38,111 nucleotides of DNA from Betaproteobacteria bacterium (GTDB lineage: Bacteria > Pseudomonadota > Gammaproteobacteria > Burkholderiales > Thiobacillaceae): the NCBI GenBank assembly GCA_020061585.1, contig JAGUXX010000255.1:1-38111 (forward strand), read 5' to 3'. A program made the position numbers and the translations under genes. The notes beneath the pieces are model-generated. The model ran no database searches, was not told the DNA's origin, and saw only the letters and a program-made list of their open reading frames with translations. Of this stretch, positions 1-36,000 are shown piece by piece (position 1 is the stretch's first letter; each line of letters begins with the position of its first letter).

Positions 1-306
1 CGGCTGGGTGTTCTTCTCGCCGATGATGGTGATCGACTCGGTGCCGGCGATGTTGGAGGTGATCTCGACCGGCACGACCGCGCCGTTCTCGGCGATGTCC
101 GGCGCTTTCACGCTGATGTCGCCCGCCGCCGCGCCAGTACCGCCGATCGCGCTCATCACGCCGCCCAGGTCCTTGCTTTCGAACGCAGCCTTGTTCCAGT
201 CGGACGCGAAAACCGCGCCTGGCTTCAGCAGGCCGGCAACCATCGCCACGCTCACCGCGCTGGCAGCGCCGGCGCCCTTCAGTACGTTTCTGCGCAAAAT
301 ATTCAT
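1..306 (-). CDS. soxY: SoxY, thiosulfate-oxidation carrier protein (partial, N-terminal 102 residues)
   Basis: The gene runs off the left edge, so only the first 102 codons are present. SoxY, with SoxZ, carries the sulfur intermediate on a C-terminal cysteine during periplasmic thiosulfate oxidation. The visible N-terminus has a Tat-type leader (LRRNVLKGAG, then a hydrophobic run ending near AVFAS) followed by SoxY-like sequence (DWNKAAFESKDLGGVM and VEITSNIAGTESI). The carrier GGCGG tail would lie outside the window and cannot be checked. The ATG at 304-306 has a strong ribosome binding site (AAAGGAG) a few bases upstream. It starts 24 bases after the soxX stop, so the two are probably one transcript, with soxZ expected beyond the edge. 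Confidence 0.88.
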   Translation of the reverse strand, partial: MNILRRNVLKGAGAASAVSVAMVAGLLKPGAVFASDWNKAAFESKDLGGVMSAIGGTGAAAGDISVKAPDIAENGAVVPVEITSNIAGTESITIIGEKNTQP

Positions 307-11865: not shown

Positions 11866-12780
11866 TCAGGGTTTGACGACATCGACTTCGATGCCGGTGG
11901 AACAATCCAGCGTACGGTGTTTGAGGGCCGGCAGGCTCTTGCGCAGACTTTCCTGGTAGGCGCGATTGACCCCGGCGACGACCACGCCGGAACCGCGCGG
12001 CAGGCGGTCGAGCACATTGCCCCAGGGATCGACGATCATGCTGTCGCCGTGGGTTTCGCGACCGGAGACATGATAGCCGCCTTGCGCCGGGGCGATGACA
12101 TAGGCGAGATTCTCGATCGCGCGGGCGCGGATCAGCGTCTCGAAATGCGCCCGGCCGGTGGTTGCGGTGAACGCCGCCGGGACCAGGATGATGTCGACAT
12201 CGCCCATCGCCCGATACAACTCGGGGAAGCGCAGGTCGTAGCACACCGACAAACCGATGCGGCCGAACGGCGAATCGACGACGACCAGGCGGTCGCCGGC
12301 TTCGATGGTGGTCTGTTCCTTGTAATGCTCATTGCCGAGGTCGAGTCCGAACAAGTGAATTTTGTCGTAACGCGCGACCCGCTTGCCCTTGTCGTCATAA
12401 ACCAGGCAGGCGTTACGGACTTTCTTCGGGTTGTCGCAGGCCATCGGCACCGAACCGCCAACCAGCCAGATCGCGTGTTTCTTGGCCTGGGCGGCGAGAA
12501 ATCGCTGGATCGGCCCCTTGGCATCGACTTCCGCGACCGAGACCTTGTCGGTTTCCTTCATGCCCATGATGGCGAAGAATTCCGGCAAAGCGACCAGTTT
12601 GGCGCCCGCCAGCACCGCCGAGTTGATCAGGCGCTCCGCCTCCGCGAGATTGGCCGCCACATTCGGGCCGGAGGCCATCTGCACCGCGGCGACTCGCACG
12701 ATACCGCTGGCGTCCTGCGCCGGTTTGGGCGTGGCGCGGGTTTTGGTCTTGGCAAAACTGGAAGGCTTGACGCGGGTCAC
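11866..12780 (-). CDS. Nitrilase-family carbon-nitrogen hydrolase (Nit1/Nit2-like, possible deaminated-glutathione amidase)
   Basis: A cytoplasmic amidase of the nitrilase superfamily. The catalytic triad is visible: Glu67 in LVALPEFF, Lys140 in RYDKIHLFGLDL and Cys180 in LSVCYDLRFPELYR. The pattern IHLFGLDLGN and HFETLIRARAIENLAYVIAP is typical of the Nit/NitA group that removes the amide from deaminated glutathione; the substrate is inferred. The open frame runs upstream to 12993, but that part is translated repeat DNA. The GTG at 12778-12780 is chosen because GGGAG precedes it by seven bases; it leaves a basic 27-residue leader before the conserved IVRVAAVQMASG. It sits between yhdP and tldD on one strand, a betaproteobacterial order. 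Confidence 0.88.
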   Translation of the reverse strand: MTRVKPSSFAKTKTRATPKPAQDASGIVRVAAVQMASGPNVAANLAEAERLINSAVLAGAKLVALPEFFAIMGMKETDKVSVAEVDAKGPIQRFLAAQAKKHAIWLVGGSVPMACDNPKKVRNACLVYDDKGKRVARYDKIHLFGLDLGNEHYKEQTTIEAGDRLVVVDSPFGRIGLSVCYDLRFPELYRAMGDVDIILVPAAFTATTGRAHFETLIRARAIENLAYVIAPAQGGYHVSGRETHGDSMIVDPWGNVLDRLPRGSGVVVAGVNRAYQESLRKSLPALKHRTLDCSTGIEVDVVKP

Positions 12781-12876
12781 AGGGGGGCTCCCGTAATGGC
12801 ATTGGAGAGGGTCGAGGGTACACAAGGACTTTACGCAACCGCAATAGCCAATATGGGCTGGATGCGGCGATGACCA

Positions 12877-13039
12877 ACGTGAAACGTGAAAAGTGACTTG
12901 CCGCTGCGCGGCGTTGGTGAAACGAGCGGCGGCTTCGCCGCGATTACCGCACTTTTCTCGTTTCACCAGCGGCGCAGCCGCATCACACTTCACCTTTCAC
13001 GTTTCACCAGCGGCGCAGCCGCATCACCCTTCACCCTTC
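12877..13039. repeat. TTCAC-heptad and inverted-repeat element at the yhdP 3' end
   Basis: An exact 28-base direct repeat (beginning CGTTTCACCAGCGG, ending GCCGCATCAC) occurs at 12959-12986 and 13000-13027. A diverged inverted copy lies at about 12900-12926, and outer GTGAAACGTGAAA (from 12879) is complementary to TTTCACGTTTCAC (near 12995-13007). A short GC hairpin with a TTC loop (12929-12941) is in the middle. The right end overlaps the last codons and the TGA of the yhdP-like gene. The unit TTCAC plus two variable bases recurs at two other places in this window. It has no open reading frame of its own and resembles a non-autonomous palindromic repeat. Confidence 0.75.
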
Positions 13040-26048: not shown

Positions 26049-26741
26049 GTGCCGGAGAACAAACTGAGCGCGAAGGAGGTTTACACCGGTTTGCGCGAGC
26101 GTATCCTGAATTTCGAGCTCTATCCCGGCAGCCGGGTCACCGAAACCGAATTGGCCGAATATTTCGGCGTCAGCCGTACGCCGATCCGCAGTGCGCTGCA
26201 ACGCCTGGAAGCGGAAGGTTATCTGACGGTGATGCCGAAACAGGGTTGTTTCATACGCAACCTGGAAATCGAAGATCTCAGGAAGTATTACCAGGTTCGG
26301 ATGAGCCTGGAGCATCTATCCTTGCAACTGGCTTGCACCTATATGAGCGATGCCGCCTTGAACGAACTGGCGGTGGCCTGGGATCCGGCCAACCAGGCGG
26401 AGCGCAGCGACGATCCGGAAGAAATGGAAGCACGCGATGAATCGTTTCATCTCGCCTTGGCGGAGGGCGGCGGCAATCTGGTGTTGCATGACTATCTGGC
26501 GGATGTGAACCGACATCTGCGCATCGTCAGGCGTCTCGGCTTCATGATGGCGGAGCGTATCGACCAGACCTATGCCGATCACTTCCTGATTTGCCAAAGT
26601 CTGCTGAAACGCGATTTGCAGGAGGCGCAGAACCTGATGCGCGAGCACATTACGCACAATGAACAATTCGTCAAAACCATCACCTTGACGCAGTTGGGCA
26701 TCCACAGGAAACGCGGCAAACAACTGGAAAAAGCAGCTTGA
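26049..26741 (+). CDS. GntR-family transcriptional regulator, FCD type
   Basis: The 230-residue protein has an N-terminal winged helix (residues 8-70: VYTGLRERILNFELYPGSRV, ELAEYFGVSRTPIRSALQRL, GYLTVMPKQGCFIR) and an all-helical FCD effector domain. Putative metal ligands Asp130, His134, His178 and His200 match the FCD pattern. The start is GTG at 26049-26051, supported by GAGGAG six bases upstream. It precedes, on the same strand, the transport/hydrolase operon at 27007-36000, and is the natural candidate for its regulator, probably a repressor released by a pathway compound. The effector is not deducible from sequence. Confidence 0.92.
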   Translation: MPENKLSAKEVYTGLRERILNFELYPGSRVTETELAEYFGVSRTPIRSALQRLEAEGYLTVMPKQGCFIRNLEIEDLRKYYQVRMSLEHLSLQLACTYMSDAALNELAVAWDPANQAERSDDPEEMEARDESFHLALAEGGGNLVLHDYLADVNRHLRIVRRLGFMMAERIDQTYADHFLICQSLLKRDLQEAQNLMREHITHNEQFVKTITLTQLGIHRKRGKQLEKAA

Positions 26742-26911
26742 CGCAGGGAGTCACGCACCAGAATTGAGCGCTTTCTGGGCGCAACGCACTGTTTCGCTTC
26801 ATCGGCCCGTATGCTGCCCAGGCCTGAGCAAGCCCCGCCTGCCGTTCACACCCCATTGATTTAAATAATGTTTTTTTCATTGCGAGTTGATCTCGACCAA
26901 CTCGCCGGGAC

Positions 26912-26939
26912 TGGCATGATGCATGCTATGTTGTATACA
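26912..26939 (+). promoter_or_regulatory. Candidate promoter and GntR operator before the oligo-urea operon
   Basis: TGGCATGATGCATGCT (26912-26927) has GG and GC spaced by 12 as in sigma-54 promoters, with two mismatches to TGGCACG-N4-TTGCW. Alternatively CTGGCA (26911-26916) and TATACA (26934-26939), 17 bases apart, form a modest sigma-70 promoter. TGTATACA (26932-26939), a perfect 8-base palindrome like GntR/FadR operators, sits where RNA polymerase would bind or start, suggesting repression. The gap from 26742 to 27006 holds nothing else recognisable. Confidence 0.4.
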
Positions 26940-27006
26940 TCGATGTGCGCTTGACGTGATCGTGACCAAAACAACCCGCTCAACTCAACCTTTTCTGGAG
27001 AATTTC

Positions 27007-27798
27007 ATGCGAAACAGGTCCACATCAACCCTCAGGAATCGGCGCCACGCTGGCTGGAGCAGCGTGTCCGGCGTTCTGGCATTGGCCTTGTTCGCCACGG
27101 CCAGCGCCACCAGCCAGGCGGCCGAATGGAGCACCACCAACGTCCAGTTGCTGTATGGCGACGGCTATGAACTGGGCGACAATTCGATGGCCATCATGAC
27201 CTTGGAGCATGCCAACGGCTGGAAATACGGCGACAATTTCTTCTTCCTCGATGTCAGCAATCCGACCGCCAAAGGCACCGGCTACTACGCCGAATTCTCG
27301 CCGCGCCTGAGTCTGGGCAAGATCAGCGGCAAGGACATGAAGTACGGCATCGTCAAGGATGTGCTGCTTTCGGGCACTCAGGAAATGGGCGAGGACTTGC
27401 GCGCCACCTTGCTCGGCATCGGACTGGCGCTGGACCTGCCCAAGTTCGCTTTCGCCGACTTCAACCTGTATTACCGCAAGAGCCACCGCGACTGGCTGGC
27501 GGCGCAGACCGACGGCGGCGCGCAGATCACCATCGACTGGCTGCTGCCGTTCAGCCTGGGCAATCAGAAACTGGCCTTCGAGGGCTTCGCCGACTACGCC
27601 TGGGGAGAGAAAGGCGGCAGCGCGCCGAAAGCCGACAACCTGGTTGCCGGCCCAAGATTGCTGATCGATGCCGGCAACTGGTTCGGCGCGCCGGGCACGC
27701 TACAGGTCGGCGTGGAATACCAGATCTGGCGCAACAAGTTCGGCGTCAAGGGATTCGACGAGGATATTCCGCAAGTGATGATCAAGTGGACGATGTGA
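27007..27798 (+). CDS. Tsx-like outer-membrane channel protein
   Basis: The 263-residue protein has a signal peptide (hydrophobic VSGVLALALFATASATSQAA, probable cleavage before EWSTTN) and a beta-barrel look: alternating aromatic strands such as NVQLLYGDGYEL, NFFFLDVSNPTA, GYYAEFSPRLSLGK, FADFNLYYRKSH, LAFEGFADYAWGE, and a C-terminal strand VMIKWTM. This fits the nucleoside-specific channel (Tsx) family. The ATG at 27007-27009 has GGAG six bases upstream. As the first gene of the operon it likely provides outer-membrane passage for the substrate handled by the ABC transporter; here that may be an oligo-urea rather than a nucleoside. This substrate is inferred from context. Confidence 0.8.
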   Translation: MRNRSTSTLRNRRHAGWSSVSGVLALALFATASATSQAAEWSTTNVQLLYGDGYELGDNSMAIMTLEHANGWKYGDNFFFLDVSNPTAKGTGYYAEFSPRLSLGKISGKDMKYGIVKDVLLSGTQEMGEDLRATLLGIGLALDLPKFAFADFNLYYRKSHRDWLAAQTDGGAQITIDWLLPFSLGNQKLAFEGFADYAWGEKGGSAPKADNLVAGPRLLIDAGNWFGAPGTLQVGVEYQIWRNKFGVKGFDEDIPQVMIKWTM

Positions 27799-27806
27799 GG
27801 CCCGAC

Positions 27807-28964
27807 ATGAAAAACACCAAATTGGACATGCAGCAGGATTACGCAATCGACCAGAGCCGGCGCGGCACACTCAAGGGTCTGGCCGGTCTTGGACTCGGCG
27901 CGTTGGCTGGCGGTCTGGGAATCGGCAACGCCGTGGCAGCGAGCAAAGTGACCATGGGCTTCCTCTACGTCGGTCCGCGCGACGACTACGGCTACAACCA
28001 GGCGCACTTCGAGGGCAAGTCGGCGATCGCCAAACAATCCTGGATCAAGGCGGTGGATCAGGAAAACGTGCCGGAAACCATCGCCGTGCAAAAAGCCATG
28101 GAAAGCATGATCAACCTGGACGGCGCGCAGGTGATCTTCCCGACCTCGTTCGGCTACTTCGACCCGCACATCCTGAAGATCGCGCCCAAGTATCCCGATG
28201 TGATGTTCCTGCATTGCGGCGGTCTGTATGACGCGAACAAGCATCCGAAGAACGTCGGCAGCTACTTCGGCTATATCGACGAGGCGGTGTATATCTCCGG
28301 CATCGTCGCCGGCCACACCAGCAAGACCGGCAAGCTGGGCTATATCGCCGCGATTCCGATCCCGCAGGTACTGCGCAACATCAACAACTTCACCATGGCG
28401 GCGCGCAGCGTCAACCCGAAGATCACCGTGCAGGTGGTGTTCACCGGCGGCTGGTCGAATCCGGTCAAGGAAGCGGAATCCGCCAACAGCCTGATCGACC
28501 AGGGCGTCGATGTGCTGACCTGCCATGTCGACAGTCCGAAGGTGGTCGTGGAAACCGCTGAAAAACGTGGCGTGTTTTCCTGCGGCTATCATGCCGACCA
28601 GTCGAAACTGGCGCCCAAGGGCTTCCTCACCGGCGCGGAATGGAACTGGAGCAAGATCTATCTCGATTACGCGACGATGATCGCCAAGAAGCAGAAGATT
28701 CCCAACCTGATTCGCGGCGGTTTCAAGGAGGGTCTGGTCAAGAGTTCGCCCTACGGCAAGGTGGTCAGCGCCAAGGCCAAGGCGCATGCCGACAAGGTGC
28801 GCGCGCAGTTCATGAAGGGCGATTTCGTGGTCTACCAGGGTCCGATCAAGGACAACACCGGTCGCGAAGTGATTCCGAAAGGCAAGTCCTACGGTCAGAC
28901 CGATTACTGGCTGGAAACCATGGACTGGCTGGTAGAAGGCGTGGTCGGCAAGACAAAAGGCTGA
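27807..28964 (+). CDS. BMP-family ABC transporter substrate-binding protein, Tat-exported
   Basis: The 385-residue periplasmic binding protein belongs to the BMP/PnrA-like group that usually binds purine nucleosides and related heterocycles. It has a twin-arginine leader (SRRGTLKGLAGLGLGALAGG) and lacks a lipobox. Domain features include FLYVGPRDDYGYNQAHFEGK, GAQVIFPTSFGYFDP, FGYIDEAVYISGIVAGHTSK, GKLGYIAAIPIPQV, VFTGGWSNPVKEAESANSL and GVDVLTCHVDSPKV. The ATG at 27807 lies nine bases after the channel gene stop and GAGG precedes it. It is followed by two permease genes. The substrate is unproven; the catabolic genes in the operon suggest biuret or triuret. Confidence 0.92.
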   Translation: MKNTKLDMQQDYAIDQSRRGTLKGLAGLGLGALAGGLGIGNAVAASKVTMGFLYVGPRDDYGYNQAHFEGKSAIAKQSWIKAVDQENVPETIAVQKAMESMINLDGAQVIFPTSFGYFDPHILKIAPKYPDVMFLHCGGLYDANKHPKNVGSYFGYIDEAVYISGIVAGHTSKTGKLGYIAAIPIPQVLRNINNFTMAARSVNPKITVQVVFTGGWSNPVKEAESANSLIDQGVDVLTCHVDSPKVVVETAEKRGVFSCGYHADQSKLAPKGFLTGAEWNWSKIYLDYATMIAKKQKIPNLIRGGFKEGLVKSSPYGKVVSAKAKAHADKVRAQFMKGDFVVYQGPIKDNTGREVIPKGKSYGQTDYWLETMDWLVEGVVGKTKG

Positions 28965-28967
28965 ACC

Positions 28968-29999
28968 ATGACATTCGCCCCGTTCCTGATTCCCCTGACG
29001 GCGTTGCTGCTGTCGCTGGCGCTGTTTGGGGTATTCGTCAGCCTGGCGGGGGCGGATGCGCTGGCGGTCTACCACTCGATCTATCGCGGCGCCTTCGGCA
29101 CCTGGTTTTCCTGGCAGAACACCCTGGTCAGCGCCGCGCCGTTGATGCTCACCGCCCTGTGCACGGCGTTGCCGGCGCGGCTGGGTTTGATCGTCATCGG
29201 CGGCGAAGGCGCGGTGGTATTGGGCGGACTCGCCGCCGCGCTGACCGGGTTGGCCTTGATCGATACCAACGCCTGGCTGGCATTGTCCGGCATGGCGCTG
29301 GCGGCGATGCTGGCCGGCGGCCTGCTGATCGGCCTGGTCGGCTGGCTGCGGCATAGCCGCAACGTCAACGAGACGATCAGTTCGCTGCTGTTCAACTACA
29401 TCAGCATCGCCATACTCAGTTTCCTGGTCATCGGCCTGCTGCGCGACCCGGAAACGCTGAACAAACCGTCGACGCATCACATCGGCGAAAGCCACATGCT
29501 GGGCGCGCTCGGCGAAACCTCGATCCACTGGGGCTTCGCCTATGGCGTCATCGCCTGCGTGATCCTGTGGCTGCTGTACAAACGCACCACCTTCGGCTTC
29601 GCGGTCGACATGATCGGCGGCAACCTGCGCGCGGCGCGGCTGTCCGGCCTGCCGGTGGGGCGCAACATTTTTCTGGTCTGCCTGATGGGCGGCGCGGCGG
29701 CCGGTCTGGCCGGCATGGTGGAAGTGGCGGCGGTGCATGGCCGCGCCAACACCTCGCTGAACGCCGGTTACGGTTACGAAGGCATCCTGATCGCCTTCGC
29801 CGCGCGCCACCATCCGCTGGCGATCATTCCGATGGCCATCCTGTTCGGCGGCATCCGCGCCGCCAGCGGCCTGATGCAACGCGATCATGATCTGCCCGAT
29901 GCCACCGGACTGGTGTTGCAAGGCATGATTTTCATCCTGCTACTGGCCAGCGAAGCGGTGTTCGCTCGCTTGGCGCTGAACAAGGGGAGCAAGGCATGA
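28968..29999 (+). CDS. ABC transporter permease (BPD_transp_2, first subunit)
   Basis: The 343-residue integral membrane protein has about eight to ten hydrophobic segments (for example FLIPLTALLLSLALFGVFVS, LSGMALAAMLAGGLLIGLVG, AILSFLVIGLL, WGFAYGVIACVILWLL, IFLVCLMGGAAAGLAGMVEV). It matches the permease type that works with BMP-family binding proteins (nucleoside-type importers). The motif GGNLRAARLSGLPVGRN is the cytoplasmic coupling loop. Its TGA overlaps the next permease ATG (ATGA). It starts 3 bases after the binding-protein stop. Confidence 0.93.
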   Translation: MTFAPFLIPLTALLLSLALFGVFVSLAGADALAVYHSIYRGAFGTWFSWQNTLVSAAPLMLTALCTALPARLGLIVIGGEGAVVLGGLAAALTGLALIDTNAWLALSGMALAAMLAGGLLIGLVGWLRHSRNVNETISSLLFNYISIAILSFLVIGLLRDPETLNKPSTHHIGESHMLGALGETSIHWGFAYGVIACVILWLLYKRTTFGFAVDMIGGNLRAARLSGLPVGRNIFLVCLMGGAAAGLAGMVEVAAVHGRANTSLNAGYGYEGILIAFAARHHPLAIIPMAILFGGIRAASGLMQRDHDLPDATGLVLQGMIFILLLASEAVFARLALNKGSKA

Positions 30000-30916
30000 G
30001 CGGCGAAGAATCCCAATGGCTGACGGTGCTGATCGCCGTGCTGGGCGGCGCGATCCGGGTCGGCACACCGTTCCTGTTCGTCAGCCTCGGCGAATGTCTG
30101 ACCGAGAAAAGCGGCCGCATCAATCTCGGCCTGGAAGGCAATCTGATCATGGGCGCGATGGCCGGTTATGGCGTCGCCTGGATCACCGGTTCGGCCTGGC
30201 TGGGCGTGCTGGCCGCCGGGGCGACCGGCGTCGTGCTCGGCTTCGTGCATGCGCTGCTCTGCCAGCAGCCGCGGGTCAACGACATCGCGGTCGGCATCGC
30301 GTTGATGATCCTCGGCACCGGCCTGGCGTTTTTCATCGGCAAACCGTTGATCCAGCCCACCGCGCCGCATCTGCCGGCCTTGCATCTGGGCGCCTGGAGC
30401 GACAACCCGGCGTTGCGCGCGGCGCTGGAAATCAACGCCTTGTTCATCGTCGGCGTGTTGCTGGCGCCGGCCATGGCCTGGTTCTTCAAGAGCAGCCGCT
30501 GGGGCCTGGCGATCCGCACCGTTGGTGAAAGCGACGACGCGGCGCGGGCGATGGGCCTCAACGTCAACGGCGTGCGCATGCTGGCGACCATGGCCGGCGG
30601 CTTTCTCGCCGGCGTTGGCGGCGCGTTTCTGTCGCTGTACTACCCGGGCGGCTGGAGCGAGGGCTTGTCCAGCGGCCAAGGACTAATGGCGGTGGCGTTG
30701 GTGATATTCGCGCGCTGGGACCCGATGCGCTGCCTGTACGCCTCGCTGCTGTTCGGCGGCGCCGGCGCGCTGGGCCCATCGCTGCAGGCGGTCGGCGTCA
30801 CCTCCGGCTACTACCTGTTCAACGCCGCACCGTATGTGCTGACGTTGATTCTGATGATCGCCGCCTCGTCCACCAAAGTCCGCTCCGGCATGCCCGGCTC
30901 GCTGGCGGCGCGCTAA
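29996..30916 (+). CDS. ABC transporter permease (BPD_transp_2, second subunit)
   Basis: The 306-residue integral membrane protein is the second permease of the same importer. Seen: GTPFLFVSLGECLTEKSGRINLGLEGNLIMGAMAGYGVA near the N-terminus, characteristic of this permease type, several hydrophobic helices, the coupling-loop-like GLAIRTVGESDDAARAMGLN, and GGWSEGLSSGQGLMAVALVIFARWDP. The pair of different permeases (343 and 306 residues) with a double ATPase is the normal set for BMP-type importers. It is followed after 15 bases by a hydrolase gene rather than directly by the ATPase gene. Confidence 0.93.
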   Translation: MSGEESQWLTVLIAVLGGAIRVGTPFLFVSLGECLTEKSGRINLGLEGNLIMGAMAGYGVAWITGSAWLGVLAAGATGVVLGFVHALLCQQPRVNDIAVGIALMILGTGLAFFIGKPLIQPTAPHLPALHLGAWSDNPALRAALEINALFIVGVLLAPAMAWFFKSSRWGLAIRTVGESDDAARAMGLNVNGVRMLATMAGGFLAGVGGAFLSLYYPGGWSEGLSSGQGLMAVALVIFARWDPMRCLYASLLFGGAGALGPSLQAVGVTSGYYLFNAAPYVLTLILMIAASSTKVRSGMPGSLAAR

Positions 30917-30931
30917 ACAACGGAGAAAACC

Positions 30932-31612
30932 ATGACTGCATACGTTGCCGCCGAACCTTATCCCTGGCCCTATGATGGCGATCTGCGGCCGGACAACACG
31001 GCGCTGATCATCATCGACATGCAGACCGATTTTTGCGGCATCGGCGGCTATGTCGATCGCATGGGTTATGACCTGTCGCTGACCCGCGCCCCGATTGAAC
31101 CGATCAGCCGCGTGCTGGCACAGGCGCGCAGCCTCGGCATGCTGGTCATCCACACCCGCGAAGGCCATCGCCCGGACCTGTCCGACCTGCCGGCCAACAA
31201 GCGCTGGCGCAGTCAGCGCATCGGCGCCGGCATCGGCGATCCCGGCCCCTGCGGGCGCATCCTGGTGCGCGGCGAGCCGGGCTGGGAAATCATCGCCGAA
31301 CTGGCGCCGCTGCCAGGCGAGCCAATCATCGACAAACCCGGCAAGGGCTCGTTCTACGCCACCGATCTGGAACTACTGTTGCACAAGGCCGGCATCCGCA
31401 ACTTGCTGATCTGCGGCATCACCACCGACGTCTGCGTACACACGACCATGCGCAACGCCAATGACATGGGCTTCGAATGTTTGCTGCTGGCCGACTGCTG
31501 CGGCGCCACCGACCCCGGCAACCACGCGGCGGCGTTGCACATGGTGAAGATGCAAGGCGGCGTATTCGGCGCGGTGGCGAACTCCGATCAACTGCTGGCG
31601 GCGCTGGCATGA
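30932..31612 (+). CDS. biuH: Isochorismatase-fold cysteine hydrolase, probable biuret hydrolase BiuH
   Basis: Biuret hydrolase splits biuret to allophanate and ammonia. The 226-residue protein has the cysteine-hydrolase triad: Asp29 in [10 protein letters not shown], Lys135 in [10 protein letters not shown] and Cys168 in [12 protein letters not shown]. The spacing and wording, including [51 protein letters not shown] and [13 protein letters not shown], closely recall the characterised Rhizobium BiuH, whose triad (D36, K142, C175) maps here with a constant offset of seven. RutB-type ureidoacrylate hydrolase and other family members are less likely. The gene lies within the transporter genes, between permease and ATPase, and its TGA overlaps the ATPase start (ATGA). 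Enzyme call is strong by remembered similarity; it has not been searched. Confidence 0.85.
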
Positions 31613-33135
31613 GCACGCTGGCGCTGGAAGCGATCAACGTCAGCAAGCGCTTCGGCGACTTGCAGGCGCTGGACCAGGTTTCGCTGAAACTCCGAAAAGG
31701 CAGCATCCACGCGCTGCTTGGCGAAAACGGCGCCGGCAAGAGCACGCTGGTCAAATGCATCGTCGGCTTTTACGTTCCGGACGACGGCGAAGTGCTGCTC
31801 GGCGAACGCCAGCAGGCCATCGCCAATCCGCGCGATGCGCATGACCTGGGCATCGGCATGGTCTATCAGCATTTCACGCTGATTCCGAACATGACGGTGC
31901 TGGAAAATCTGGTACTGGCCCGCCCGCATCTGCCGGCGGTGATCGACTGGCGCAAGGAACGGCGGGCCATCGCCGCGCGCATGCAAACCATGCCGTTCCA
32001 GTTGCCGCTGGATGTCTCGGTCAATCAGTTGGCGGCAGGCGAAAAACAGAAGCTGGAAATCGTCAAGCAGTTGCTGCTTAACGTGAAAGTGCTGATTCTC
32101 GATGAACCCACCTCGGTGCTGACGCCGAACGAGGCCGATGAAGTGTTGGGCCGCATCCGTGACATGACCCGCGCGGACGGCCTGAGCGTGCTGATCATCA
32201 CCCACAAGTTCCGCGAAGTGATGACCTATGCCGACGATGTCACGGTGCTGCGCCGAGGCAAGCACGCGGGTTCGGCGCGGGTGGCGGACAGCAATGTCAA
32301 GAGTCTCGCGGAACTGATGATCGGCAGCGAATTCACCAGCACCGCGCTGGCGCGGGAAAGCGTCGCCGAACAAACGTTGAAGCTCGAAATCGACACCCTC
32401 AAGGTCGCCGACGATAGCGGCATGCAAGCGGTGCGCGGTCTGTCGCTGCGGGTCATGGCGGGCGAAGTGGTGGGCATCGCCGGGGTATCCGGCAACGGCC
32501 AACGCGAACTGGTCGAAGCGCTGGCCGGCCAGCGACCGCCATCCGGCGGGCAGATCCGCGTCATGGGCGTAACCTACACCGGCCAACGCGCCAAGCTGCT
32601 GCGCCACGGTTTCCACTGTTTGCCGGAAGAACCGTTGCGCAACGCCGCCGTGGGGCGCATGAGCGTCGCGGAAAACCTCGCCTTCCGCCGCTACGACCAG
32701 CAACCGTTCAGCTTCGGCGGCTGGCTGCGCCGAGGCGCGATGCGCACGGCGGCGACACGCGCCATCGCCGATTTCAACGTGCGTCCGCCGCTGCCCGACA
32801 CGCCGATCGGCAATCTGTCCGGCGGCAACGTGCAGCGCGCCATCCTGGCGCGCGAACTGAGCGAACGCCCCAACGTGCTGGTGGTGGCCAATCCCTGCTT
32901 CGGCCTGGATTTCGGCGCGGTCAGCGAAATCCACGCCCGCATCATGGCGGCGCGCAACGCCGGCACGGCGGTGCTGCTGGTCAGCGAAGACCTGGATGAA
33001 ATTCTCGAACTGGCCGACCGCATCCTGGTCATGTCCGGCGGCCGTCTGGTCTACGAAACCACGCCGGGCCAGGCCGACCCCATCGTCATCGGCCGCCACA
33101 TGGCCGGCCATGGAGAGGAAACCCATGCCCATTGA
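31609..33135 (+). CDS. ABC transporter ATP-binding protein (two fused ATPase domains)
   Basis: The 508-residue protein has two ABC domains, as in sugar/nucleoside importers. The first has Walker [10 protein letters not shown] (38-46), Q-loop Gln87, a signature-like [10 protein letters not shown] (141-150) and Walker [13 protein letters not shown] with Asp165 and Glu166. The second is degenerate: GVSGNGQRE instead of a proper Walker A, signature [11 protein letters not shown] (403-413) and [13 protein letters not shown] in place of Walker B. This asymmetry is normal for the family. The ATG at 31609 overlaps the hydrolase stop by four bases; the next hydrolase gene starts 11 bases inside its 3' end. 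It energises the two permeases upstream. Confidence 0.94.
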
Positions 33136-33796
33136 CGCCCGTCCCTACCCCTACGAACTGCTCGCCAAACCGCCGGCGCTGGTGATCATCGACATGCAGC
33201 GCGATTTCGTCGAACCGGGCGGCTTCGGCGACGCGCTGGGCAACGATGTGGCGCGCCTGCAAACCTGCATCCCGGTGATCGCCCGGCTGCTGGCGACGGC
33301 GCGACGCCTGGGGCTGCCGGTGATCCACACTCGCGAGGCGCATCGCCCCGATTTGTCGGACTGTCCGCCGAGCAAGCGGCAGCGCGGCGATTGCCGGCTG
33401 CGCATCGGCGATGCCGGTCCGATGGGCCGGCTGCTGATCGATGGCGAACCGGGCAATGCCATCATCGAAGAACTGAAACCGCTGCCCGGTGAAATCGAGA
33501 TCGTCAAACCCGGCAAAGGCGCGTTCTACGCCACCCCGCTGGAACAGATCCTGCCGAATCTGGGCGTCACACATCTGTTGCTTGCCGGCGTCACCACCGA
33601 AGTCTGCGTGCAGACGACGATGCGCGAGGCCAACGACCGCGGCTACACCTGCCTGCTGATCGAGGATGCCACCGAGAGTTACTTCCCGGCGTTCAAACAA
33701 GCCACGTTGGAGATGATCGTCGCCCAAGGCGGCATCGTCGGCTGGGTCGCCGACAGCGACACGGTGATCCAGGCGCTGGAGCGGACCTATGGCTGA
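33125..33796 (+). CDS. Second isochorismatase-fold cysteine hydrolase, candidate triuret hydrolase
   Basis: The 223-residue protein belongs to the same family as BiuH but is clearly a different paralogue. The triad is Asp23 in [17 protein letters not shown], Lys128 in [13 protein letters not shown] and Cys161 in [16 protein letters not shown]. It shares [18 protein letters not shown] and [19 protein letters not shown] with hydrolases next to allophanate hydrolase genes. Known triuret hydrolase (TrtA) is a BiuH relative that yields carboxybiuret, which decarboxylates to biuret; a paralogue beside BiuH and AtzF is a good candidate. Other amide substrates cannot be excluded. It overlaps the ATPase gene by 11 bases and the cupin gene by 8, so all are one transcript. 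Confidence 0.75.
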
Positions 33797-34145
33797 AGCG
33801 GCCACCGGTCTGGTGCTGACGGATATCACCACGATTCCGCTGCGACAGCACGAATTTGCCTGGAACACGCTCGGGCCGGGGGTGGAGATCTGCCCGCTGC
33901 TGCGCGATGCGGCGGGCAACGCCAAACTGGCCCTGCTGCGCTACGCGCCGGGCGCGACGGTGCCCGAACACCTGCACACCGGCATCGAGTACATCCAGAT
34001 ATTGTCCGGCGCGCAGCGCGATCAGCGCGGTGTATATGGCGCCGGCAGCATGCTGGTCAGTCTTCCCGGCACGCGGCACAGCGTTGCCAGTCCGGAAGGC
34101 TGCGTGGCGCTGGCGATCTGGGAAGCGCCGGTGCAATTTTTGTAG
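33789..34145 (+). CDS. Small cupin-domain protein (ChrR-like), function unknown
   Basis: The 118-residue single-cupin protein has a metal-binding pattern: [16 protein letters not shown] supplies two His and a Glu, and GTRHSV supplies another His. It resembles ChrR-type cupins. It lies between the second hydrolase gene (8-base overlap) and the allophanate hydrolase gene (61 bases away). No known step in biuret or triuret breakdown requires a cupin. Guesses include help with an unstable carboxylated intermediate or a sensing role; neither is shown by the sequence. Confidence 0.82.
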
Positions 34146-34206
34146 CGCCATCCGCGATCAGCCCCGAACGCCAGTTCGCTCCGACTTTCCCTGACGCCAG
34201 AACGAC

Positions 34207-36000
34207 ATGCCCCCTGACCTGACGATTTCCAGCCTGCGCCGACGCTACCTGTGTGGCGAACTCAGCCCGCCGGCGCTGGTGGAAGAACTGCTCGAACAGT
34301 TGGCCGGCGAAGACCACCACCGGGTATGGATCAGCCGTCTCGATGCCGACGCATTGCGCAGTCATGCCCGCGCGCTGGAAGGCAAGGACATCGCCAGCCT
34401 GCCGCTGTACGGCATTCCGTTCGCGATCAAGGACAACATCGATCTGGCCGGCCTGCCGACCACCGCCGGCTGCCCGGCCTACGCCTACACGCCTGTCGAA
34501 TCCGCCAGCGTGGTGCGGCGCCTGATCGACGCCGGCGCCATTCCGCTCGGCAAGACCAATCTCGACCAGTTCGCCACCGGCTTGAACGGCACCCGCTCGC
34601 CGTATGGCGCCTGCCGCAACGCGTTCAACCCGGACTACATTTCCGGCGGTTCCAGCTCCGGTTCCGCCGTGGCGGTAGCTCTGGGTCTGGCGAGTTTCGC
34701 GCTGGGCACCGATACCGCCGGTTCCGGCCGGGTGCCGGCGGCGTTCAACAATCTGATCGGCCACAAGCCGAGTTGCGGCGCGCTGTCGACCCGCGGCGTG
34801 GTGCCGGCCTGCCGCTCGCTCGACGCGGTGTCGATCTTCGCGCTGACCGCCGAAGATGCCGAACGGGTACTGGCGGTGACTGCCGGGTTCGATTCCGAAG
34901 ACCCGTTTTCGCGGCCGCTGATGCCGCACGGTTTCGATTTCGGCCGCGCCGCCGCTTTCCGCTTCGGCGTGCCGATGGCGAAAGACCTGGAATTCTTCGG
35001 CAATGCCGAAGCCGCGCGGCTGTTTGGCGAGTCGGTGGAAAAACTGAAATCGCTCGGCGGCGTGCCGGTGGAAATTGATCTGACACCGTTCCTCGAAACC
35101 GCCCGTCTGCTCTACGGTGGCGCCTGGGTCGCGGAACGCTACCAGGCCATCCGCGAGTTCTTCGACGCGCGGGCCGATCAGGTATTTCCGCCGGTGCGCG
35201 ACATCATCGCCGGCGGCAAAGCGCTAACCGCCGCCGACGCCTTCGCCGGCCAGTACCGGTTGCGCGCGCTGAAAGCGCGGTGCGACACGGTATGGAACGA
35301 CATCGACGTGCTGCTGACGCCCACCGCCGGCACGATCTATCGCATCGAGGCAATGCGGGCCGACCCGATCCGCCTCAACGCCAATCTGGGCTACTACACC
35401 AACTTCATGAATTTACTGGACCTCGCCGCCAGCGCCGTGCCGGCCGGCTTCCAGGCGGATGGACTACCGTTCGGCGTGACGCTGATCGCCCCGCCGCGCC
35501 AGGATGCGCCCTTGCTGCATCTGGCCGCGCGATTGCAGCGAAAATCCAGCGATAGACTCGGCGCGACGTTACAACCTTTACCGCCGCCGGATGCGCTTTC
35601 GTTGTTGCCCAGCGGGCAAATCCAGGTCGCCGTGGTCGGCGCGCATCTGTCCGGTTTGCCGCTGAATTACCAACTCACGCAACGCCAGGCCCGCCTGGTC
35701 GAGACCACCCGGACCGCGCCGAACTACCGCTTCTACGCCTTGCCCGACGGCAAACGCCCCGGCCTGATCAAAGTCGCGCAAGGTGGCGCGGCGATTGACT
35801 GTGAAGTCTGGGAAATGCCGGCCAGCCAGTTCGGTTCTTTCGTCGCCGGCATTCCGGCGCCGCTGGGCATCGGCAAGCTGGAACTGGCGGATGGCGTGAC
35901 GCTGAACGGCTTCATCTGCGAACCCATCGGCCTCGACGCGGCGATCGACATTACCGAGCACGGCGGCTGGCGCGCCTGGCTGGCGACCAGGCGGCGCTGA
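34207..36000 (+). CDS. atzF: Allophanate hydrolase (AtzF type)
   Basis: Hydrolyses allophanate to ammonia and CO2, the last step of biuret and cyanuric acid catabolism. The 597-residue protein has an N-terminal amidase-signature domain with the Ser-cisSer-Lys triad: Lys75 in PFAIKDNIDLAG, Ser149 in ISGGSSSGSA and Ser173 in GTDTAGSGRVPAAFNN. The spacing between these residues equals that in Pseudomonas AtzF (91, 165, 189). A separate C-terminal domain follows (from about residue 450; RQARLVETTRTAPNYRFYAL, PGLIKVAQGGAAIDCEVW), as in full-length allophanate hydrolases. No urea carboxylase gene is nearby, which argues for biuret rather than urea as source. A 61-base gap precedes it; the ribosome binding site is weak. 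Confidence 0.92.
   Translation: MPPDLTISSLRRRYLCGELSPPALVEELLEQLAGEDHHRVWISRLDADALRSHARALEGKDIASLPLYGIPFAIKDNIDLAGLPTTAGCPAYAYTPVESASVVRRLIDAGAIPLGKTNLDQFATGLNGTRSPYGACRNAFNPDYISGGSSSGSAVAVALGLASFALGTDTAGSGRVPAAFNNLIGHKPSCGALSTRGVVPACRSLDAVSIFALTAEDAERVLAVTAGFDSEDPFSRPLMPHGFDFGRAAAFRFGVPMAKDLEFFGNAEAARLFGESVEKLKSLGGVPVEIDLTPFLETARLLYGGAWVAERYQAIREFFDARADQVFPPVRDIIAGGKALTAADAFAGQYRLRALKARCDTVWNDIDVLLTPTAGTIYRIEAMRADPIRLNANLGYYTNFMNLLDLAASAVPAGFQADGLPFGVTLIAPPRQDAPLLHLAARLQRKSSDRLGATLQPLPPPDALSLLPSGQIQVAVVGAHLSGLPLNYQLTQRQARLVETTRTAPNYRFYALPDGKRPGLIKVAQGGAAIDCEVWEMPASQFGSFVAGIPAPLGIGKLELADGVTLNGFICEPIGLDAAIDITEHGGWRAWLATRRR

Follow-up and report, generated by a model that had tools for sequence, protein, structure and literature searches.

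The breakdown of triuret through TrtA, BiuH and AtzF has been described in Herbaspirillum sp. BH-1 and Rhizobium leguminosarum bv. viciae 3841 (PMC7948467). In addition, contigs of ammonia-oxidizing bacteria (AOB) and comammox bacteria carry biuH, trtA and atzF together with bmpA-nupABC (PMC12625717, 2025), that is, the same enzymes and the same type of importer in chemolithoautotrophs. Here, we analyzed a probable operon for this pathway on positions 1 to 38,111 of contig JAGUXX010000255.1 of assembly GCA_020061585.1 (this whole stretch is referred to below as the window), where it occupies positions 26049-36000 of the + strand. A first-pass annotation had read this region as ten genes in one orientation with overlaps or short gaps between them; all ten were confirmed at their coordinates on the + strand, and their families were confirmed by Pfam and NCBIfam. 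Judging from gene content and sequence relationships, we consider it likely that these genes form a complete operon for scavenging triuret and biuret. The operon is of a widespread type whose core is already known, and the novelty seen in it by the first-pass annotation has to be given up, since both the enzyme operon and the BMP-ABC (ATP-binding cassette) set in lithoautotrophs are published.

Assignment of the enzymes

Central to this interpretation are two related hydrolases, which the first-pass annotation had called BiuH-like and a second member of the BiuH family, and which we identify from their sequences as BiuH and TrtA, respectively. Hydrolase 1 (30932..31612, +) passes the BiuH equivalog NF050097 with 420.1 bits against a cut-off of 370, whereas hydrolase 2 (33125..33796, +; ATG start taken from the sequence) stays below it at 250.9 bits and has TrtA (6xix, E 7.2e-88) as its best PDB match. 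PMC7948467 names six positions at which the TrtA and BiuH consensus residues differ: in TrtA numbering, positions 35, 41, 134, 160, 187 and 205 are Y, Y, S, D, T and V in BiuH but F, N, A, E, Y and I in TrtA. Hydrolase 1 has the residues YYSDTV, matching BiuH at 6/6 positions, and hydrolase 2 has FNAEYI, matching TrtA at 6/6; the catalytic set (D, E, K, K, C, Q) is complete in both. In a FastTree phylogeny of 176 family rows (171 different) from the fetched loci and references, the TrtA group with 6xix is split from BiuH by a branch with support 97, and hydrolase 1 groups with the BiuH reference 6azo, hydrolase 2 with 6xix. The classes defined by the residue sets need one label change on this tree, two unclassed rows standing outside the count. 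Both hydrolases therefore fall within the BiuH/TrtA clades, in agreement with the family calls of the first-pass annotation, which had itself named a phylogeny as the way to refute them.

The same data bear on the idea that hydrolase 2 might be a GuuH-like guanylurea hydrolase or a generalist, the operon then serving guanylurea or other carbamoyl compounds. GuuH does belong to the same isochorismatase-like family, with up to 65% identity among relatives, according to PMC9800807. Nonetheless, hydrolase 2 has the six TrtA residues and the full catalytic set, groups with 6xix and is encoded together with BiuH and AtzF, which makes this idea very improbable. A guanylurea hydrolase or a RutB-type enzyme was rejected as the identity of hydrolase 2 on the basis of residues and tree, GuuH itself not being among the aligned sequences.

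The remaining enzyme, AtzF (34207..36000, +), has an amidase part and a C-terminal domain. It reaches 804.9 bits with TIGR02713 (cut-off 511.05) and 170.5 bits with Pfam AH_C for the C-terminal domain (cut-off 27), its best PDB match being 4gyr (E 2.2e-180). As a separate observation, many triuret operons (L100, L104, L205 and other loci) have a formamidase-annotated gene between permease and biuH. There were 15 strong hidden Markov model matches to formamidase in the set of open reading frames (ORFs) of the loci, and distant ones in L030 and at 11869-12996 of the window.

Substrate of the importer

The importer consists of a BMP-type substrate-binding protein (27807..28964, +; Pfam Bmp; the ORF is listed from GTG 27786, the probable start being ATG 27807), two permeases (28968..29999 and 29996..30916, +; Pfam BPD_transp_2) and a double ATPase (31609..33135, +; two stretches of Pfam ABC_tran). 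The binding protein carries SRRGTLKG, which we take to be a twin-arginine translocation (Tat) motif, and is probably Tat-exported. The first-pass annotation had proposed biuret or triuret as the cargo. Alternatively, the enzymes might be as named above, but the importer and the accompanying channel might carry purines or nucleosides, triuret being made inside the cell by purine or uric acid chemistry. This agrees with the usual annotation of such genes, bmpA-nupABC and Tsx, and PMC12625717 calls such an importer an ABC nucleoside transporter. The closest PDB relative of the binding protein, AtzT (6pi5, E 1.7e-61), binds guanine at ~110 nM, with Ser97, Phe98 N, Glu165, Asn218 and Asn220 as contacts and the base held between Tyr45 and Trp194 (PMC6834077). 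The pocket string of the window protein is YSFVQNWHD, so that Tyr45, Ser97, Phe98, Asn169 and Trp194 (AtzT numbering) are kept as in AtzT, while His at 218 and Asp at 220 are shared with 3s99, a structure modelled with adenine according to the same paper. The best fold match of the channel, too, is E. coli Tsx with thymidine.

What sets the window protein apart from purine binders of the AtzT type is position 165, where it has Gln in place of the guanine-bonding Glu. We compared this position across operon-linked BMPs, defined by a BiuH/TrtA-family gene at most 5.2 kb downstream on the same strand, with two duplicate loci left out. Gln is found in 57/65 of them and Glu in 0/65. In the eight remaining proteins the residue is P, S, T, A or F, and three of them are low-scoring BMPs of another kind. 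Six further BMPs of the set do not satisfy the linkage definition: three have Gln, of which two are divergent from trtA and one lies at the edge of its locus, and three, including AtzT, have Glu. A complementary view comes from AtzT-type proteins (at least 290 bits) in the host's class, in which 19/229 genomes had any match and 30 loci were collected. Among the 23 distinct proteins, two duplicate rows and 7 lower-scoring rows being left out, 19 have Glu165 and four have Gln. These four are the window copy, two from triuret operons (one of them on the contig of L006, which the 65 already include) and a protein whose gene neighbours a distant member of the isochorismatase family. For the 19 Glu-type relatives, no TrtA-family match of the same genome lies nearby. 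In other words, Glu165 is kept in 19/19 AtzT-type proteins away from TrtA-family matches and in 0/65 operon-linked ones. Two genomes (G257 and G207) each carry both the Glu and the Gln form, and the host genome has one BMP match.

Replacing a carboxylate that contacts the purine by an amide would fit a neutral urea chain, and the pocket looks retuned from a purine-binding kind; the residue change is observed, the ligand we infer from it. The loss of the purine-contacting Glu165 in operon-linked BMPs, with the resulting Gln165 pattern, is new here. Several points weigh against reading it as a switch to oligo-ureas: the eight linked BMPs without Gln, the His218 and Asp220 common to 3s99, and the possibility that Gln165 may partly reflect shared ancestry among proteins collected by TrtA similarity. 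Nevertheless, the near-uniform change at 165, together with the fact that none of the ten operon genes belongs to a purine-breakdown family (the search did not extend to the rest of the genome), makes a purine or nucleoside cargo unlikely. The proposal that the importer carries biuret or triuret thus gains support from the changed pocket, although it stays an inference.

Two loci found along the way show further arrangements. In L154 (G033:C42), a BiuH gene occurs with AtzE- and AtzH-like genes, an ABC importer in a different order and a Gln165 BMP, possibly representing a biuret route with AtzE replacing TrtA. In L077 (Rhodobiaceae), the TrtA gene is immediately preceded by a Tsx-like gene and followed by an AtzE-like one, and a Glu-type as well as a Gln-type BMP importer are encoded close by.

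The channel gene (27007..27798, +; ORF listed from 26923, likeliest start ATG 27007) encodes a protein with a signal helix that scores 49.6 bits with Pfam Channel_Tsx (cut-off 27.2) and misses the NCBIfam Tsx subfamily cut-off (21.4 vs 311). Its AlphaFold model (mean pLDDT 76.8) is a barrel with 13 strand elements, consistent with the 12 strands of the Tsx barrel. The best PDB match is E. coli Tsx (1tlw, E 2.4e-9), the likeness of fold resting on the predicted model, with 15-16% identity over the match. In the proposed pathway, the protein would let triuret or biuret pass into the periplasm. Some observations weigh against giving it a fixed place in the pathway. Where the sequence upstream of the trtA frame exceeded 6.5 kb (62 loci), a related channel gene was found in six cases and not detected in 56, and triuret operons therefore do not generally include one; a seventh, short locus (L039) has such a gene beside trtA on the opposite strand. 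Within the TrtA clade of the window (nine rows, SH-aLRT support 88), by comparison, the channel is present in all eight members with upstream sequence, the ninth (L005) beginning inside biuH. In the sister operon L004, the channel slot holds a protein 61% identical to AtzS of plasmid pADP-1, and the window channel in turn shares 29% identity with AtzS (E 2e-21). We take AtzS to be an outer-membrane protein; it was identified from its position between the LysR and BMP genes of pADP-1, and, as a further point on the negative side, gave no Pfam match even at E 0.1. PMC6834077 lists AtzS among the ABC transporter genes. Through pADP-1 and L004, the pairing of channel and importer has a precedent, which tempers the view of the first-pass annotation that a dedicated channel is notable: a channel-like protein beside such an importer already exists in pADP-1. 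The literature searched gave no report of an outer-membrane channel in triuret operons, and the available portions of PMC12625717 and PMC7948467 mention neither the outer membrane nor Tsx.

From triuret to biuret

The product of TrtA, carboxybiuret, has to lose CO2 to become biuret, and it has an in vitro half-life of ~20 min (PMC7948467). This step, in which the cupin may act, was not considered by the first-pass annotation. The cupin (33789..34145, +; Pfam Cupin_7) has 118 residues in one domain, and its HxH-E-H metal ligands are invariant in 52/52 rows, two duplicate loci among them. Its AlphaFold model has a pLDDT of 94.3, with the ChrR cupin and metal-cupin enzymes as the nearest folds and ChrR anti-sigma cupin domains as the nearest sequence relatives. 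The last point suits an explanation in which the cupin is a small-molecule sensor or helper rather than an enzyme and carboxybiuret decarboxylates spontaneously, for which the half-life also speaks.

Genomic context gives a mixed answer. In the best 80 of 510 TrtA relatives, which constitute our genome loci, 42 have the cupin, 12 have an AtzH-like gene (Pfam PF11533), none has both and 26 have neither; many loci are truncated, and the last class includes genes beyond locus ends. With both flanks present (55 loci), the numbers are 32, 10, 0 and 13. In 42/42 loci the cupin gene is a direct neighbour of trtA on the same strand, either downstream of it or upstream, the latter mostly in cyanobacteria. 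Cupin and AtzH-like gene exclude each other with a one-sided Fisher p of 4.5e-5 over the 80 loci. The weight of this figure is reduced by phylogeny, since the two labels switch only 3 times on the TrtA tree (still 3, against a shuffled mean of 14.3, with three more loci, giving 48 and 16 labelled rows), and an independent-pairs test cannot reach significance. We therefore do not regard the exclusion as a strong statistical case, given the 3 switches and the truncated loci. Likewise, the AtzH-like gene adjoins trtA in only 5/12 loci, the remaining seven lying 0.7 to 6.8 kb away, twice on the opposite strand, which weakens the argument that both genes share a slot. These counts and the 26 loci with neither gene tell against a cupin enzyme.

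In the genus Herbaspirillum (31 genomes searched), an AtzH-like gene lies beside trtA, with no cupin within 1.5 kb, in 20/20 fetched loci, one of which encodes a TrtA 99% identical to 6xix. Since the carboxybiuret decarboxylase TrtB was named in Herbaspirillum, TrtB is most likely the AtzH-like protein, and the cupin is probably not a TrtB homologue. Even two Rhizobiaceae plasmids with AtzD hold either one, cupin in L205 and AtzH-like in L206. Based on the exclusion, the constant place beside trtA and the invariant metal site, we propose that the cupin may be a second kind of carboxybiuret decarboxylase, the case being suggestive rather than strong. The sensor or helper role is in our estimate evenly balanced between true and false: the invariant ligands, the adjacency to trtA in all 42 loci and the absence of any locus with both genes argue against it, and the ChrR kinship, the spontaneous decay of carboxybiuret and the loci without either gene argue for it. 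An unusual arrangement is seen in L152 (G051:C6), where the genes follow one another as AtzF, BiuH, cupin and TrtA, so that BiuH and TrtA enclose the cupin; no BMP importer genes were found there within the 19 kb fetched.

Occurrence, expression and host

The order BMP, permease, permease, BiuH, ATPase, TrtA recurs in several phyla among the best 80 loci, namely in Alpha-, Beta- and Gammaproteobacteria, Nitrospira, cyanobacteria, a verrucomicrobium and SAR324, in some cases with a formamidase or AtzD gene interposed. Triuret operons also occur on plasmids of Enterobacter, Ideonella, Mesorhizobium, Sulfitobacter, Pseudomonas luteola and Rhizobium. On a small plasmid of Enterobacter hormaechei (L100) the operon is flanked by two IS1 elements, and Klebsiella and Citrobacter plasmids carry BMP and TrtA relatives with 60-65% identity. 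Within the host's genus, a close TrtA is present in 4/23 genomes, the host included, and all four have the ten genes, which stand in the same order in G002, G007 and G019 (in one of these AtzF is cut by a contig end). The recurrence of the ten genes and of the core order indicates that the operon is not due to chance, and the presence of close copies in four assemblies makes a binning error less likely.

To the left of the operon are genes resembling what we take to be proA, nadD and rsfS; to the right is a gamma-glutamyltransferase gene on the opposite strand. In 17 fetched nadD-rsfS regions of the genus (3 to 6 kb beyond rsfS), no operon genes were found, and G007 and G019 hold the operon on contigs other than the nadD-rsfS one. 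A fixed chromosomal feature of the genus can thus be dismissed (4/23 genomes, 0/17 regions); the unit is instead mobile or repeatedly lost.

From the channel to the cupin, neighbouring genes overlap by 4 to 11 bases or are separated by 3 to 15 bases, and this close spacing suggests a single transcript. The gaps are larger between cupin and AtzF (61 bases) and between the channel and the gene at the head of the unit (265 bases). The latter encodes a GntR-family (FCD) regulator (26049..26741, +; Pfam GntR and FCD above cut-off), also found at this place in G002, G007 and G019, and is probably the operon regulator. The 265-base gap holds a block identical in four genomes of the genus except for one base. 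Within it, a sigma-54-like promoter element, TGGCATG-N4-ATGCT (GG-N10-GC; 26912..26927, +), and an adjacent palindrome, TTGTATACA (26931..26939), a candidate GntR operator, are identical in 4/4 genomes; this conserved combination is new here. The element scores 20/22, and shuffles did as well in 2, 0, 8 and 3 of 300 cases in the four genomes. Since atz operons are sigma-54 dependent (PMC6834077), the element would fit nitrogen control. On the other hand, its consensus and weights were set by hand, and a scan demanding a closer match (TGGCACNNNNNTTGC with one mismatch allowed) failed to pick up the site, nor did its matches in the window exceed those in shuffles; both points count against a promoter here. 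NtrC sites upstream of the element were sought by eye, and none is claimed.

The host genome encodes a RuBisCO large subunit over the cut-off and two copies of dsrA, both over the cut-off (G000:C250 and G000:C242; L158, L159). One dsrA lies beside dsrB, two DsrE/F-family genes, DsrH, DsrC and relatives of DsrM, K, O and P (DsrM and DsrP under their own cut-offs); NAD(P)-binding and CobB-type proteins of this cluster are taken for putative DsrL and DsrN. DsrEFH are a mark of the oxidative dsr type. The second dsrA is on another contig, apart from the cluster. There are four soxY matches, two of them at contig ends; one of these two is a fragment at positions 1-132 (- strand) of the window, which may be what prompted the sulfur-oxidizer idea in the first-pass annotation. 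RuBisCO, the dsr cluster and soxY together make a sulfur oxidizer with CO2 fixation plausible as far as genome content goes, and the suggestion of a lithoautotrophic host holds to that extent but not beyond. The state of the assembly (336 contigs, 4.59 Mb, 93.5% complete) counts against the interpretation of the operon as a whole. A search for ammonia monooxygenase in the host genome gave no match, but no control genome matched either, so the result is uninformative.

Discussion

Based on these data, it is possible to sketch how the operon might work. Under nitrogen shortage, expression would start from the sigma-54-like promoter, with the GntR protein presumably repressing at the palindrome near the start site. 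Triuret or biuret would enter the periplasm through the Tsx-like channel, be captured by the probably Tat-exported BMP protein and be imported by the two permeases and the double ATPase, as expected for their family. Going by the family reactions, to which the hydrolases were assigned by sequence and residues, TrtA would convert triuret to carboxybiuret and ammonia; carboxybiuret would yield biuret and CO2 either spontaneously or, as proposed here, through the cupin; BiuH would convert biuret to allophanate and ammonia; and AtzF would split allophanate, giving two ammonia and two CO2. The ammonia released would feed the biosynthesis of a CO2-fixing sulfur oxidizer.

It is tempting to go further and to combine two proposals, namely that the cupin decarboxylates carboxybiuret without being related to the AtzH-like protein, and that the BMP/ABC importer with its Tsx-/AtzS-type channel represents an oligo-urea line evolved from a purine importer by replacement of Glu165. 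We put this combination forward as tentative and rather doubtful. If true, the cupin would supply a step apparently missing from many triuret operons; in any case, it can be tested as a candidate for an enzymatic step that the published operons leave open. The single residue at position 165 may serve as a mark separating oligo-urea importers from purine importers that share the same annotation. More generally, the operon links triuret, a little-known nitrogen source that comes from fertiliser or from the oxidation of uric acid, to a probable CO2-fixing sulfur oxidizer, and similar operons in cyanobacteria and Nitrospira suggest that oligo-urea scavenging is widespread. The outer-membrane channel and the small metal-binding cupin are the unexplored parts of an otherwise mostly known kit.

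Several known systems can be compared with the window. The plasmid of R. leguminosarum GLR17 has the order BMP, two permeases, formamidase, BiuH, AtzD, ATPase, TrtA, cupin, that is, with additional formamidase and AtzD genes and without AtzF in the 13 kb shown, whereas the window has AtzF. Two Herbaspirillum-genus genomes (TrtA 98-99% identical to 6xix) have AtzF, ATPase-like, BMP, two permeases, BiuH, ATPase, TrtA, AtzH-like and GntR genes, with the AtzH-like gene where the window has a cupin. Neither stretch has an outer-membrane channel gene, unlike the window. For the AOB and comammox contigs, the available text of PMC12625717 reports trtB in AOB only and does not mention a cupin. AtzH, as described in PMC6219798, has the same role as proposed for the cupin, decarboxylating an unstable N-carboxy-ureide between two hydrolases, but it has an NTF2 fold (DUF3225), whereas the window protein is a metal cupin. 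Finally, atzRSTUVW of Pseudomonas sp. ADP plasmid pADP-1 resembles the window in having the channel-like AtzS beside a Tat-type BMP and an ABC importer, and differs from it in having a LysR regulator, a cyanuric acid pathway and a BMP that binds guanine and keeps Glu165.

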